Positions 11,567 to 33,533 of a stretch of DNA of 45,078 nt are shown here, one piece after another (position 1 is the stretch's first letter; the number at the start of each line of letters is the position of its first letter). Source of the stretch: a bacterium (lineage in GTDB: Bacteria > Patescibacteriota > Minisyncoccia > Phycocordibacterales > JAUSHB01); the NCBI GenBank assembly GCA_030648955.1, contig JAUSHB010000013.1, forward strand, positions 140,675 to 185,752, given 5' to 3'. The position numbers and the translations under genes were made by a program. Below the pieces are notes generated by a model, which saw nothing but the letters and a program-made list of their open reading frames with translations, was not told where the DNA came from and did no database searches.

Positions 11567-12037
11567 ATGCGAAGAAAAATAAAAAACCGCCATAGTGCAC
11601 AACCAGATTTTACTTATTCATCTCAAAAAGTAGGTAAGCTTATTAACTATGTGATGAAAGAGGGAAAGAAGAATGCCGCTCAAAAGATCGTGTACGGCGC
11701 CCTTGATTACATAAAGGAAAAAATGAAGACAGAAAATCCGCTTGAAGTTCTTGATACCGCTCTTAATAATGTCGGACCTGTGATGGAAATTCGTTCTCGC
11801 CGAGTTGGCGGTGCTAATTATCAGGTTCCCCGCGAAGTGCGCCCTGATCGCAAAAGTACACTCGCCATGCGCTGGATCCTCGAAGCGGCTCACGGCAAAA
11901 AGGGTGCTCCGATGCACGTGAAACTTGCTGATGAGCTTATTGCAGCAAGTAAGAACGAAGGGGAAGCGATCAAAAAACGCGAGAATACCCACAGAATGGC
12001 AGAAGCGAATAAGGCATTTGCCCATTTTGCATGGTAG
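11567..12037 (+). CDS. rpsG: 30S ribosomal protein S7
   Basis: A 156-aa primary binding protein of the 16S rRNA 3' major domain. The typical segments are MRRK, KLINYVMKEGKKNAAQKIVY, LDTALNNVGPVMEIRSRRVGGANYQVP and AMRWILEAAHGK. Length is normal. The next gene is not fusA but a four-helix-bundle gene enclosed by complementary arms that begin four nucleotides after the rpsG stop. Confidence 0.97.
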   Translation: MRRKIKNRHSAQPDFTYSSQKVGKLINYVMKEGKKNAAQKIVYGALDYIKEKMKTENPLEVLDTALNNVGPVMEIRSRRVGGANYQVPREVRPDRKSTLAMRWILEAAHGKKGAPMHVKLADELIAASKNEGEAIKKRENTHRMAEANKAFAHFAW

Positions 12038-12040
12038 ATA

Positions 12041-12488
12041 GTAAGTTTATAAAGTAGAAAGTTCATAAAGTTTATAAAGTAAGCGCATGAGAATAGATCA
12101 ATTTGAAGACATTATTGCTTGGCAAAAAGCAAAGTGCCTTACCGAAGAGACTTACGAACACATGAGAGGAGTGAGGGATTTAGGGTTTAAAGACCAGATC
12201 CAGAGAGCGGCGGTTTCTGTGATGAATAACATTGCAGAGGGATTTGAAAGAAGATCAAATAAAGAATTCAAAAACTTCTTATTTATCGCAAAAGGATCGT
12301 GCGGAGAAGTGCGTTCAATGTTATACATTGCAGACTCATTGAAATATATCGACAAAAAGCAAATCGATTTAATGTCTGCGCTTTCTGTCGAAATCTCCAA
12401 AATGCTCTCAGGATTGATAAAAACTCTCTAAACTTTATGGATTGTATTAACTTTAAAAACTTTATGAACTTTATTAACCTTAAAAACT
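12041..12488. repeat. Inverted arms enclosing the four-helix-bundle gene (IVS-like element)
   Basis: The left arm (12041-12082) repeats words of the type GTTTATAAAG and AAAGTTCATAAAGTT. The right arm (12431-12488) carries the complementary words, including AACTTTATGAACTTT, an exact 15-nt match to the complement of the left arm. About 35 nt can pair with a few mismatches. The arms begin at the rpsG stop and end nine nucleotides before fusA, so the whole 12087-12431 gene sits in the loop. Confidence 0.7.
12087..12431 (+). CDS. Four-helix-bundle (S23, 23S rRNA intervening-sequence type) protein
   Basis: A 114-aa protein with the family's features: FEDIIAWQKAKCLTEETYEH, FKDQIQRAAVSVMNNIAEGF, SNKEFKNFLFIAKGSCGEVRS and ISKMLSGLIKTL. 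Families of this kind are encoded in intervening sequences of 23S rRNA genes or as free genes; the molecular role is unproven, possibly RNA binding or structural. It is unusual that it sits between rpsG and fusA, flanked by complementary arms as in an rRNA intervening sequence. The start ATG follows the left arm by four nucleotides; no Shine-Dalgarno. Confidence 0.9.
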   Translation: MRIDQFEDIIAWQKAKCLTEETYEHMRGVRDLGFKDQIQRAAVSVMNNIAEGFERRSNKEFKNFLFIAKGSCGEVRSMLYIADSLKYIDKKQIDLMSALSVEISKMLSGLIKTL

Positions 12489-12496
12489 GACTTGGC

Positions 12497-14647
12497 ATGG
12501 AACGAGACTACCCGTTAGAAAAAATACGAAATATTGGCATCATCGCTCACATTGACGCTGGGAAAACCACCACAACCGAGAGGGTTTTGTATTACACAGG
12601 ACGATCGCACAAGATCGGCGAAGTGCATGAGGGCGATACAGTTATGGACTGGATGGAACAGGAGCGTGAGCGTGGAATCACGATTACTTCTGCGGCAACC
12701 ACCTGTTTTTGGACGCCAACCTACTTGGACTCGAAAGATGAGAGCAAAAAATATCGTTTTAATGTTATTGATACGCCTGGGCACATCGACTTCACAATTG
12801 AAGTGAAGCGCAGTTTGCGCGTGCTCGATGGCGCAGTGGTGGTGTTTGACGGTGTTGCCGGCGTTGAACCGCAATCAGAAACAAACTGGCGCTATGCTGA
12901 TGAAGGAAAAGTGCCACGTATCTGTTTTATCAACAAGCTTGACCGCACAGGCGGTTCTTTTGAGAAATCGTTTGCAAGTATTTTAGACCGTCTCACCAAA
13001 AACGCGGTGCGCATGCAAATCCCGATCGGCGAAGAAGAAAAACACGAAGGAGTTGTGGATCTTCTCAAAATGAAAGCGTATTACTTTGAAGGAGAAATGG
13101 GTATGACGGTACGAGAAGCTGAGATTCCGGAACATCTCAAGGCAAACGCGAAAAAATTCCATAACGAACTTATTGAAAAGATCGTTGAGCAGGATGAGCC
13201 ACTCATGGAAGATTTTCTTGCCGGCAAAGAGATTCCTGTCGCGGAACTTAAAAAAGTTTTACGCAAAGCAACCATTGCAAATGACATTGTTCCTGTTTTT
13301 ACCGGTTCGGCGCTCAAAAATAAAGGTGTTCAGCTCGTGCTCGATGGTGTTGTCGACTATCTCCCGAGCCCACTTGATATTCCTAAACCAAAAGGTATTG
13401 ACCCGGTAAGTGGAGATGAAATTACTCGCGAAGTATCCGATACCGAGTCGCTTTCAGCGCTTGCGTTCAAACTTCAAAGCGATCCGTTTGTGGGACAGCT
13501 CACTTTTTTCCGTGTCTACTCGGGAACACTTGAGTCAGGCTCATATTTATATAATTCAACAAAAGGAAAAACTGAACGTATCGGGCGGATCTTGAGAATG
13601 CATGCAAACCAGCGTGAGGAAGTGAAAAAGGTTTTTGCGGGTGAAATTGCCGCGGCAGTCGGACTTAAGGATACAATGACATCAGACACGCTCTGCGACG
13701 AAAATAATCCGATCATTCTTGAAAGGATTAAAGTTCCAGAACCAGTGGTGTCGCTTCGTATTGAACCGAAAACAAAAGCAGACCAGGAAAAAATGGGCAT
13801 GGCGCTCTCACGTCTCGCTGCTGAAGACCCGACATTTCGCATTACCACCGACCCGGAGACGCTTGAAACGGTCATTTGGGGTATGGGAGAGCTTCACTTG
13901 GAAATTATCGTTGATCGTATGAAGCGCGAATTTACCGTGGAAGCAAATGTGGGCAAACCGCAAGTGGCATATCGCGAGACCATTACGAAAGAGGCGGAGG
14001 CGGAAGCAAAACATATCAAACAATCAGGAGGTCGCGGACAATATGGACACGTCAAAATTCGCATCAAACCGCTTGATATGTCGGGTTGGGCTGAAGAGAA
14101 AAAACAACCGAAGAATGTCAAACGCGAGCAAGGATTTGAGTTCATCAATAACATCAAGGTAGGGGTGGTGCCGCAAGAATTCATTCCGCCTATTGAAAAA
14201 GGCATCAAAGAAGGAATGGAGCGTGGCATACTCGCCGGATATAGGATGGTTGATATTTCAGCCGAGCTTTTTGATGGTTCTTACCACGATGTTGACTCAT
14301 CCGAAATTGCATTTAAAATCGCGGGTTCGCAAGCACTTCAAGATGCGGCCCGGCGCGCAGGTCCGGTCATTCTTGAACCAGTGATGAAAGTCGAGGTGGT
14401 AACACCGGAGAAATTCATGGGTGATGTTACCGGCAATCTCTCTTCCAAGCGCGGACAGATCGAAGGGATGGAAGAGCGCGGTATGAATAAGGCGATCAAA
14501 GCAAAAGTTCCGCTCTCGGAAATGTTCGGCTATATCACGACCCTCCGCTCGATGACCGAAGGCCGCGCAAGCTTCACGATGGAATTTGATCACTATGAGA
14601 TTGTGCCTACAAATGTGGCGACGGGGATTATCGAGGCGAGGAAGTAA
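12497..14647 (+). CDS. fusA: Elongation factor G
   Basis: A 716-aa translocation GTPase. G motifs: [12 protein letters not shown] (G1), [11 protein letters not shown] (G2), DTPGHIDF (G3), NKLDR (G4) and GSALK (G5). Domains II-V follow, with EF-G-specific [10 protein letters not shown] and the C-terminal [20 protein letters not shown]. Length is close to the usual 690-705. It is the last gene of the str transcript, followed by a 17-bp perfect terminator stem. The segment before the start codon is the right arm of the element at 12041-12488, so reading of this essential gene depends on transcription through it. Confidence 0.98.
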
Positions 14648-18132: not shown

Positions 18133-18759
18133 ATGAAATTTATCCTTGGAACAAAACAGAATATGATTCAATTTTTCACTGAAAAGGGGAAAAGTATCCC
18201 AGCGACGATTCTTTCTGTGCCTCCTGCGGTAGTTACTGCTCTTAAAACCAAGGATAAAGATGGATACGATGCTATTCAAATTGGCATTCCGTCAAAAGAA
18301 AAAAGAATTTCAAAGGCTGAAAAAGGGCACTTGAAGGATCTTGGTAATTTTAAACCTACGAGAGAGTTTAGGACTTTGAGGGGAAGTCTTACCGATTTCA
18401 AGCGGGGTGACACTATTGATGTTTCGACATTTAAGGAAGGGGACGAAGTCACAATAAGTGGAATCAGCAAAGGAAAGGGATTTCAGGGTGTTGTGAAACG
18501 ACACGGATTTTCAGGAGGTCCAAGATCGCATGGTCAAAAGCATTCCGAGCGTGAAGCGGGTAGTATTGGCGGTGGTGGACGAGCCGGAGGACGTGTTGCA
18601 AAAGGAATGCGCATGGCAGGTCGTATGGGAGGAGATCGCGTGAGCGTCAAAGGACTCAAGGTGCTTTTGGTCGACATTAACCAAAATGCCTTATTGGTAT
18701 CAGGTGCAGTGCCGGGGAAGAGAGGAACGTTGTTAGAGATAGTTTGGGAAGCTTCATAA
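18133..18759 (+). CDS. rplC: 50S ribosomal protein L3
   Basis: A 208-aa early-assembly protein. The core contains FILGTKQNMIQFFTEKGKSI, GDEVTISGISKGKGFQGVVKRHGFSGGP, SHGQKHSEREAGSIGGGG and RVAKGMRMAGRMGGDRVSVKG. The glutamine of the GGGPxSHGQ-type loop, which is methylated in other bacteria, is present. The last codons (WEAS) are already part of the first AGCTTC word of the following hairpin spacer. Confidence 0.97.
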   Translation: MKFILGTKQNMIQFFTEKGKSIPATILSVPPAVVTALKTKDKDGYDAIQIGIPSKEKRISKAEKGHLKDLGNFKPTREFRTLRGSLTDFKRGDTIDVSTFKEGDEVTISGISKGKGFQGVVKRHGFSGGPRSHGQKHSEREAGSIGGGGRAGGRVAKGMRMAGRMGGDRVSVKGLKVLLVDINQNALLVSGAVPGKRGTLLEIVWEAS

Positions 18760-18834
18760 GCTTCAGCAGCTTCCAGAGCTTCAAAAGCTTTCGAAGCTAA
18801 CGAAGCTAACGAAGCTCAGGAAGCTATAGAAGCT
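18748..18834 (+). repeat. Hairpin spacer of AGCTTC words between rplC and rplD
   Basis: Five copies of AGCTTC/AGCTT at 7-10 nt spacing in the left arm face five copies of GAAGCT in the right arm; the apex is AAAGCTTTCGAAGCT. The left arm overlaps the rplC stop codon and the right arm ends seven nucleotides before the rplD ATG. The same word family returns at 28357-28432. Confidence 0.8.
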
Positions 18835-18841
18835 AAATTTT

Positions 18842-28346: not shown

Positions 28347-28356
28347 AGGAGAAAAA

Positions 28357-28432
28357 GCTTCAATAGCTTCCAAAGCTTCAAAATATTTAAAAGCTAAGCA
28401 GCTAACGAAGCTTAAGAAGCTAGAAGCTTCTT
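28357..28432 (+). repeat. Hairpin spacer of AGCTTC words before rpsN
   Basis: Three AGCTTC words on the left (AAGCTTCAATAGCTTCCAAA) face GCTAAGCAGCTAACGAAGCT and AAGCTAGAAGCTT on the right. Same word family as 18748-18834. It ends eight nucleotides before the rpsN ATG. Confidence 0.75.
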
Positions 28433-28439
28433 AATTATT

Positions 28440-28625
28440 ATGGCAAAAACATCAGTTATTGCGCGAGCAAACAAGAAACCAAAATTTAGCAGTCGTATCG
28501 TGCGTCGCTGTTTTCGTTGTGGTCGTAAGCGCGGCTATATGCGAGATTTCAACCTTTGTCGTATTTGTTTTCGAGAATATGCAAACGAAGGTATGATTCC
28601 AGGAGTTAAGAAATCAAGCTGGTAG
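28440..28625 (+). CDS. rpsN: 30S ribosomal protein S14, zinc-binding type
   Basis: A 61-aa short-form S14. Zinc ligands are [21 protein letters not shown] (CxxC-x12-CxxC pattern), followed by [18 protein letters not shown], the usual end. The long zinc-free form is not present here. It follows the leader RNA and the AGCTTC hairpin and begins the rpsN-rpsH-rplF segment. Confidence 0.97.
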
Positions 28626-29661: not shown

Positions 29662-29757
29662 CAAAGTTTTCAGTTAAATAGTTTGTAGTTTTTAGAAAAA
29701 AATGGGAGAATCTTTAAAACTAAAAACTAATAACTACCAACTAGAAACTAACTAAAC
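29662..29757 (+). repeat. Hairpin spacer, copy 2 of a duplicated element (rplF-rplR)
   Basis: Nearly identical to 27488-27589: the first 37 nt match exactly and the 3' arm (AACTACCAACTAGAAACTAA) differs by few bases. The left arm can pair with the right arm over about 30 nt. Confidence 0.85.
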
Positions 29758-30904: not shown

Positions 30905-31399
30905 ATGCAGATACACGAATTAAAACGAAATACAAAAAGCAAACAGAAGCGTCAAATTGGACGTGGTGGTAAGCGTGGAAAAACTTCCGGTCGTGGAACA
31001 AAAGGTCAGAATGCTCGCGCAGGAAGAAAAAAACGTCCTGAACTTCGAGATATGATCAAAAAATTTCCGAAACTACGAGGAACAAGTACTCATGGTCGTT
31101 TTACTTCCTTAAGTAAAAAGGTCACTGTTGTTTCTCTTAAGACTATCAACGACGCATTCCCCAAAGGCGGAGAAATCAATCCAGCGACATTGGCTGCAAA
31201 AGGTGTTATCTTGAAGAAAGGTTATACGTATCCACGAGTGAAAATTTTGAGTGACGGCGACATCACCTCCAAGATAATTGTTTCGGGGTGCGAAATATCC
31301 AAAGGCGCTTTGGAAAAGATCAAGAAAGTGGGGGGAAGTGTAGCAAATGTAAAAATTAAAAATCAAAGTTCAAAATCACAAGTGAAAGTTATAAAATAA
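30905..31399 (+). CDS. rplO: 50S ribosomal protein L15
   Basis: A 164-aa protein. Core: MQIHELKRNTKSKQKRQIGRG, GKRGKTSGRGTKGQNARAG, RPELRDMIKKFPKLRG. The final residues (KIKNQSSKSQVKVIK) are encoded by the A-rich left arm of the following spacer, very like the tail of rplV (KIKNKSAKIKIKES). This suggests that the spacer element extends the reading frame. Confidence 0.96.
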   Translation: MQIHELKRNTKSKQKRQIGRGGKRGKTSGRGTKGQNARAGRKKRPELRDMIKKFPKLRGTSTHGRFTSLSKKVTVVSLKTINDAFPKGGEINPATLAAKGVILKKGYTYPRVKILSDGDITSKIIVSGCEISKGALEKIKKVGGSVANVKIKNQSSKSQVKVIK

Positions 31400-31477
31400 A
31401 AGAACGGGAAAAATGAAAAAATTTTTCAATTTTAGACTGTAGTTTTACATTTTGATATTTAATTTTTTATTTTACTT
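31348..31477 (+). repeat. A/T-arm hairpin spacer between rplO and secY
   Basis: A-rich left arm (AAAATTAAAAATCAAAGTTC, AAAATCACAAG) within the rplO end and T-rich right arm (TTTTACATTTTGATATTTAA, TTTTTTATTTTAC). Its centre has an AAAAATTTTTC palindromic core instead of the GC cap. Confidence 0.7.
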
Positions 31478-32749: not shown

Positions 32750-32755
32750 GAAAGT

Positions 32756-32849
32756 GCAAAGTTTAAAAATCAAAATTCAAAATTTAGGTATTTGCCTACG
32801 GCGAATTCGTTAATTTTACATTTTGATATTTACAGTTTACACTTATACC
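32756..32849 (+). repeat. A/T-arm hairpin spacer with GC cap between secY and the kinase gene
   Basis: Left arm AAAAATCAAAATTCAAAATT, cap ATTTGCC-TAC-GGCGAAT (32790-32806, with one G-U pair), right arm TTAATTTTACATTTTGATAT. Same family as 25051 and 33444. Confidence 0.75.
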
Positions 32850-33443
32850 ATGTCTCCTCAAACATTCATTTTTATCGGCAGATCAGGTTGCGGAAAGGGA
32901 ACACAAGCCGATCTTCTTCAAAAATATCTTAAAACACAGGACCCCGGTCGTGAGATTTTTTATTTGGAAACAGGCAGTCGTTTCAGGGATTTTATCAAGG
33001 GCGATAGCCTTTCAAGTAAGCTTTCGCTCGCTATTTCACAAGAGGAGAAGCTTCAACCAAGCTTTCTTGCGGTGTGGATGTGGTCGCACCTTTTTATTGA
33101 AAACCTCAAGGGTAATGAGCATATTATAAGTGACGGGACTCCGCGCTCAGTCGACGAGGCTCGCGTCCTTGATTCTGCGATACGGTTTTATGATCGTATG
33201 CCGGCATACGTTGTTTATCTCAATGTCTCTCGAAGCTGGGCGGAAGACCGTCTTCAAAACCGAGGACGAGCAGACGATCAAAACAAGGATAGAATCAAGA
33301 AGCGACTTGATTGGTTTGAAACAGATGTATTGCCTGCAGTCAATCACTTGCGAGAACACCCTGAATATCGTTTTCTTGATATCAACGGAGAGCGGCCGCT
33401 TGAAGAAGTACACAAGGAAATCATAAAAAATATTAAAGTGTAA
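32850..33443 (+). CDS. Adenylate-kinase-like nucleoside monophosphate kinase
   Basis: A 197-aa P-loop kinase. Walker A is FIGRSGCGKGTQADLLQKYL; the NMP-binding region has YLETGSRFRDFI and ISDGTPRSVDEARVLD (the family usually has DGFPR); the lid/arginine region is RGRADDQNKDRIKKRLDWFE. It is in the usual adk place between secY and map and is short because the lid domain is minimal. The first glycine of the GxPGxGKGT loop is followed by R rather than P/A, so base specificity is not certain. Start at MSPQTFIFIG rather than an upstream ATG in the spacer. Confidence 0.88.
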   Translation: MSPQTFIFIGRSGCGKGTQADLLQKYLKTQDPGREIFYLETGSRFRDFIKGDSLSSKLSLAISQEEKLQPSFLAVWMWSHLFIENLKGNEHIISDGTPRSVDEARVLDSAIRFYDRMPAYVVYLNVSRSWAEDRLQNRGRADDQNKDRIKKRLDWFETDVLPAVNHLREHPEYRFLDINGERPLEEVHKEIIKNIKV

Positions 33444-33533
33444 ATATCAAAATGTAAAATTATGGAATTCGCCGTAGGCGAATACGAGAATTTTGAACTT
33501 TGATTTTTTAATTTTAAATTTAGTAAAGCGATC
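33444..33533 (+). repeat. A/T-arm hairpin spacer with GC cap between the kinase gene and map
   Basis: Left arm TAAATATCAAAATGTAAAAT, cap ATTCGCC-GTA-GGCGAAT (33467-33483, perfect), right arm AGAATTTTGAACTTTGATTT. It begins at the stop codon and reaches close to the map ATG. Confidence 0.8.

Follow-up and report, generated by a model that had tools for sequence, protein, structure and literature searches.

The window analyzed here is a stretch of 45,078 nucleotides from a bacterium of the Patescibacteriota (contig JAUSHB010000013.1 of assembly GCA_030648955.1, positions 140,675 to 185,752 of the forward strand). Within it, the operon genes rpsG and fusA are separated by a complete gene of the S23/IVP family of four-helix-bundle proteins, which is enclosed by a pair of inverted arrays of short repeats, hereafter the arms (Table 1). 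A first-pass annotation, made from the sequence alone, had described a gene in the loop of a long inverted repeat and had likened it to the intervening sequences (IVSs) of 23S rRNA. This layout was confirmed at the same coordinates, with arms that score far above shuffled sequence. The annotation was silent on the tandem 9-mers that make up the arms, on the five further IVP genes of the genome, and on the arrays that occur without any gene.

Gene and arms at the rpsG-fusA locus

Both its profile matches, which lie above the cut-off, and its four-helix-bundle fold place the protein in the S23/IVP family (PF05635, TIGR02436), as first proposed. The AlphaFold2 model (pLDDT 94.5) aligns with the S23 protein 2gsc at a TM score of 0.90 and also matches 2rld, while the match to Avd of a diversity-generating retroelement (4dwl) is weaker (Foldseek TM about 0.78). 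Since the comparison with the orthologue of a related genome (G020) gives a dN of 0.077 at a dS of 2.4, the protein is, on these rates, under strong purifying selection; its dN is below those of rpsG and fusA. In a composition-based test for transfer, the GC content at third codon positions was 0.31 in the IVP gene vs 0.45 in the flanks, and the value for IVP genes correlates with that of the host. The insert encodes the IVP reading frame alone. It lacks the internal Y1 transposase that would be expected of an IS200/IS605-type or repetitive extragenic palindrome (REP) element, and Y1 genes are present elsewhere in the same genome.

The arms share the word AACTTTATGAACTTT (12458-12472), whose complement AAAGTTCATAAAGTT lies at 12058-12072. 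A repeat search delimits an ungapped core of 23 nt that is 96% complementary (12058-12080/12450-12472), and gapped alignment lengthens the arms to 12040-12080/12450-12492 with a score of 27, compared with maxima of 18 when the flanks were shuffled and 23 when the arms alone were (5000 shuffles each). The structure is one of tandem 9-nt units, AAAGTTTAT and AAAGTTCAT upstream and their complement downstream. In the G020 orthologue, 37 of 53 alignment columns of the upstream arm are identical, compared with 54% identity at the third codon positions of the gene, which suggests that the arms are constrained, with the caution that repeats align easily. As in the IVSs of 23S rRNA, terminal inverted repeats enclose the reading frame. 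The site is nevertheless the gap between rpsG and fusA and not a helix of 23S rRNA, and Rfam gave zero matches across the window, so that there is no rRNA there.

Table 1. Genes, arms, and gene-less foldback arrays in the window.
Feature	Position	Strand	Evidence
rpsG (ribosomal protein S7), upstream operon partner	11567..12037	+	TIGR01029 E 1e-57
Upstream arm: degenerate 9-mer array (AAAGTTTAT/AAAGTTCAT), begins directly after rpsG stop	12040..12080	+	repeat search, gapped alignment, shuffles; largely conserved in G020 orthologue
S23/IVP four-helix-bundle protein gene, 114 aa	12087..12431	+	PF05635 E 6.7e-33; TIGR02436
Weaker additional copy of downstream array, overlaps IVP gene 3' end	12422..12448	+	direct repeat and inverted pair
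Downstream arm: inverted 9-mer array (ACTTTATGA), 4 nt short of fusA	12450..12492	+	repeat search, gapped alignment
fusA (elongation factor G), downstream operon partner	12497..14647	+	TIGR00484
IVP-less array (AGCTTCxxA 9-mers), rplC-rplD	18748..18841	.	short-repeat foldback
IVP-less array (AGCTTC), before S14-type gene at 28441	28355..28435	.	short-repeat foldback
IVP-less array (TAGTTTx heptads), rplF-rplR	29672..29757	.	short-repeat foldback
IVP-less array (AAATCAA heptads), rplO-secY; rplO C-terminus apparently read from the array	31345..31477	.	short-repeat foldback
IVP-less array with inner GC hairpin, secY-adk	32755..32847	.	short-repeat foldback
IVP-less array, adk-map, inverted relative to the secY-adk array	33440..33530	.	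short-repeat foldback

Inverted arms accompany IVP genes across the order

Searches of the genus and of the family gave this genome alone, and the comparison set was therefore the order, in which 82 of 148 genomes carry IVP genes. All six IVP genes of the genome are flanked by short-repeat arrays, each with a different word (e.g., TAGTTxx, GTATTGx, TGTAACx). For 127 IVP genes of the order, we aligned the upstream flank (160 nt) to the reverse-complemented downstream flank of equal length. The mean score was 16.8 for native pairs, 9.4 for mismatched pairs, and 9.9 for direct repeats. With strong arms defined by a score of at least 16, these were present in 76 of the 127 native pairs (60%), vs 2.2% of mismatched pairs and 13.5% of non-IVP genes from the same loci. 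Most relatives have thus kept the arms along with the gene, an outcome that favors the first-pass annotation, which had named genes without arms as evidence against itself.

The arrays have a short period, with autocorrelation peaks at lags 7 and 14 and best lags of 7 (147 arms), 8 (34 arms), and 9 (32 arms). Even among protein relatives, an upstream arm is a closer match to the downstream arm of its own locus than to those of the relatives (p 3e-19 to 4e-7), and the two arms therefore change together. The gene upstream of the element is co-directional at 101 of 108 loci in the order and at 60 of 65 in a set of named loci described below; the downstream gene is so at 86 and 55 loci, respectively, the base rate for adjacent genes in the window being 42 of 55. 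In one relative (L074), the IVP gene is bordered on either side by multi-block AAAGTTCAT arrays of great length (1300-1500 and 1830-1990, with 130-nt arms), a possible expanded element.

Arm words differ between loci but track the clade of the protein and not the site. The more alike two IVP proteins are, the more alike their arms tend to be (Mantel rho 0.20, 0 of 500 shuffles), and when arm words were mapped onto a tree of 193 IVP proteins, there were 14 changes, vs 38-45 with shuffled labels, although automatic labelling left 75 of the 193 rows without a word. On the same tree, host groups change 13 times. A scan of GTDB with the subfamily of the window returned 80 named loci with 54-81% identity in Patescibacteria, Bacteroidota, Ignavibacteriota, Thermodesulfobacteriota, and others. 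Most of them have AAAGT arms in mirror image, and 62 of the 80 score at least 16. Their neighbors vary: trigger factor and ClpP (tig-clpP), an S24 peptidase and a UmuC-type polymerase (umuD-like-umuC), an ABC ATPase and its permease, or a flippase and a glycosyltransferase. Carriage by phages was discarded as a reading, IMG/VR having given just one distant relative.

Occupied, empty, and alternative sites

Between rpsG and fusA, G020 and a Yonathbacterium (L149) have the orthologous element, with protein identities of 76-88%, and most other relatives examined lack such an element there. The copy of the window would be an old insertion common to this genome, G020, and the Yonathbacterium. We rejected recent homing between this genome and G020, because synonymous sites are near saturation and a third genome has the same site, and we likewise rejected the Yonathbacterium match of 81% identity as an independent insertion, since it is the same rpsG-fusA insertion. 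Two further genomes have something else in this gap: in G019, an unrelated IVP gene with arms of ATCTAAA heptads, and in G014, a gene-less GAATCAA foldback that occupies a gap of 112 nt.

A second comparison involves G100, which has four IVP elements on one contig, and its syntenic sister G023, where none of the four corresponding gaps contains an IVP gene and one is merely short (53 nt). Within the G100 set, two copies with 81% identity share a TGTAACA-type word at different sites. Together with the rpsG-fusA pattern, this fits the gain and loss of a unit. At the first site, the G023 gap was short and could not be aligned at the base level in search of a target-site duplication or a precise empty site, and the divergence between another pair of sisters (G128 and G061) was too great for empty sites to be recognized. 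Other small elements occupy the same gaps in G023: one has a GIY-YIG-like reading frame inside GTCATTCCCGCG hairpin repeats where G100 has an IVP element (L251, G023:C22, 9505-10130), and two contain AGGACTTACGCG...CGTAAGTCCT foldbacks.

Gene-less foldback arrays

The window also has foldback arrays without an IVP gene, which sit in gaps of the ribosomal protein superoperon. Two opposite-facing copies enclose adk, with the GC hairpin TTCGCCGTAGGCGAA in the loop and a flank complementarity score of 57. When up to 20 kb around rpsG was scanned for arrays away from IVP genes, their density per 10 kb was 1.70 in IVP-rich and 0.33 in IVP-free genomes, an about 5-fold difference (p 6.5e-4) between groups with a GC content of 0.42 and 0.46, respectively. 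These arrays tend to have a nearby inverted partner (p 1.6e-5), and they are closer to the IVP arms of their own genome than to those of other genomes (p 0.003). We did not retain a plain terminator reading, as the arms are mostly AT-rich arrays of short repeats that lack a GC stem.

Such arrays could arise in another way. Heptamer and nonamer foldbacks might be formed and corrected by template switching during replication all over these genomes, with S23 genes merely persisting inside them or making such DNA tolerable. The many gene-less arrays are in line with this, as is the joint change of the arm words, which is what correction of quasi-palindromes would do. Yet slippage of this kind is at odds with an arm word that tracks the protein clade across phyla and with a gene and arms that seem to move as a unit, and we consider it unlikely.

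Pairing at the level of DNA or RNA

A stem that works in the sense transcript should tolerate G.U over A.C mismatches. Over the arms of 158 loci, we counted 182 mismatches of the G.U type and 198 of the A.C type (96:94 in the order), vs 3:0 in the tRNA acceptor stems of the same loci, a small sample. Because the two types are equally frequent, the arms have no signature of sense-RNA pairing. The RNA of 12030-12500 does fold with its arms paired (z -4.4), as the first-pass annotation had anticipated, but the antisense strand pairs too (z -5.8). The balance of mismatches and the equally strong antisense fold argue that the complementarity is made or kept at the level of DNA.

These observations bear on the RNA-level reading of the first-pass annotation, in which the rpsG-fusA mRNA pairs through its arms into a stem, RNase III cuts this stem, and the S23 segment is released as from 23S rRNA. 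The family of the protein, the stem-enclosed layout, the strong RNA fold, and the sense orientation within operons all speak for it. A parallel is the IVS in the 23S rRNA of Coxiella, in which tandem heptamers precede the S23 reading frame and the terminal stem has 28 bp (PMC4990558). The gross architecture is indeed the same, namely an S23 reading frame in a terminal inverted repeat. However, arms also exist as gene-less DNA foldbacks, which the IVS model does not predict, and neither excision as RNA nor folding away to join the translation of rpsG and fusA finds support in the mismatches or in an antisense stem that is as strong. Moreover, the removal of IVSs from rRNA leaves the fragments unjoined, and cutting here would therefore split the mRNA, parting rpsG from fusA with no known ligation step. 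All in all, release as RNA seems quite improbable.

An mRNA-level role could also be regulatory: the S23 protein made from the operon would bind the arm repeats in the mRNA and tune the expression of rpsG and fusA. The gene is under strong selection, it is found at the same location in three genomes, and its arms are located where ribosomes enter the IVP gene and fusA. Set against this are the presence of the same element next to unrelated genes elsewhere, its absence from rpsG-fusA in most genomes, and the lack of an RNA-pairing signature, so that we give a host regulatory gene very little credence.

A probable mobile foldback DNA element

In our view, the rpsG-fusA insert probably represents one copy of a mobile foldback DNA element, small in size (about 450 bp) and composed of two inverted arms of degenerate 7-9-mer arrays and one S23/IVP gene. 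Such elements would insert in sense orientation, mostly into the gaps between co-directional operon genes. The sequence comparisons show a linkage of gene and arms, an association of word and clade, a dispersal over sites and phyla, a sense placement in operon gaps, and gene-less copies that track IVP content. Having presumably no promoter of its own, the element would be expressed by read-through from the host operon. The S23 protein, whose pentameric fold is related to the nucleic-acid-binding Avd, may recognize its own repeat word as DNA and bring the two arms together or protect them. Cut-and-paste could depend on a separate enzyme that works in trans, with a Y1/HUH transposase that acts on single-stranded hairpins as one candidate. 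The same system would also mobilise the gene-less foldbacks, as non-autonomous derivatives of the element. Y1_Tnp genes co-occur with IVP genes (62 of 82 IVP genomes vs 28 of 66 others, odds ratio 4.2, p 5e-5).

Several points weigh against this interpretation. The uncorrected co-occurrence with Y1 genes could stem from genome size or from a general load of mobile elements. Strong arms, at a score of at least 16, are missing from about 40% of IVP loci, and some arrays are present even in IVP-free genomes. The presence and absence of elements between G100 and G023 is not polarised, and sequence comparison revealed no transposition event and defined neither a target-site duplication nor exact ends. 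To our knowledge, no function is known for S23/IVP proteins, although structures have been solved, and they have no known nuclease or strand-transfer activity; we found no binding data for any S23 protein with these repeats.

Relation to known systems

Among known systems, miniature inverted-repeat transposable elements (MITEs), other foldback elements, and the REP hairpins that Y1 transposases mobilise come close: they too are short hairpins with inverted arms in gene gaps, with gene-less copies and a plausible mobiliser in trans, and the element described here likewise has copies at different sites that are present or absent among relatives. It differs in that its arms are short-repeat arrays with a locus-specific word and that its coding versions contain an S23 gene instead of a transposase. 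The 23S rRNA IVSs of Leptospira and Coxiella have a homologous protein (PF05635), a length of about 430-450 nt, a reading frame in terminal inverted repeats and, in Coxiella, heptamers before it (PMC4990558). Here, by contrast, the element lies in protein operons, its arms are inverted arrays with no RNA-pairing signature, and its protein is clearly selected.

Degenerate 7-mer arrays at gene boundaries are known from many bacteria, including TAACTGA sets, the short tandemly repeated repetitive (STRR) sequences of cyanobacteria, and those of the SPADE survey (PMC6344855, PMC4679880). Between prokaryotic genes, heptamer arrays are reported to be more abundant than any other periodic repeat, and there is said to be 'no clear clue' as to what they do (PMC6344855). 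The arrays described here differ: they come as inverted pairs, are linked to S23 genes, and have words specific to a clade. IVSs with S23 reading frames and terminal stems, widespread intergenic heptamers, and the resemblance of PF05635 to Avd are thus already known. In the open literature searched, outside which most subscription papers lie, we found no report connecting S23 genes outside rRNA with inverted heptamer arrays.

More tentatively, and with the balance somewhat against it, S23/IVP genes could be the protein-coding partners of DNA foldbacks that form a widespread class, with inverted 7-9-mer ends recognised by the S23 protein. The 23S rRNA IVSs would be a special case, inserted into rRNA, and debris of this class would account for much of the heptamer content of bacterial intergenic regions that has no explanation so far. 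Such a class may help to explain the short repeats of many bacterial genomes. S23 proteins and intergenic heptamer arrays are tied here by a specific, testable link, each S23 clade having its own repeat word mirrored in both flanks, and the results suggest a new type of small mobile element living in the essential-operon gaps of reduced genomes.

The homology of PF05635 to Avd has been stated before (PMC10053308), and the fold of Avd from diversity-generating retroelements (4dwl, 8ub7) is the same as that of the IVP protein. Unlike Avd systems, the rpsG-fusA locus has no reverse transcriptase and thus no such gene beside template and variable repeats, which were not searched for; the only one of the genome starts at C13:24397, more than 100 kb away. 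Retromobility driven by reverse transcriptase was set aside, its presence not being significantly associated with IVP genes (p 0.18). This single reverse transcriptase gene (G000:C13:24397-25011, L146) possibly belongs to a diversity-generating retroelement.
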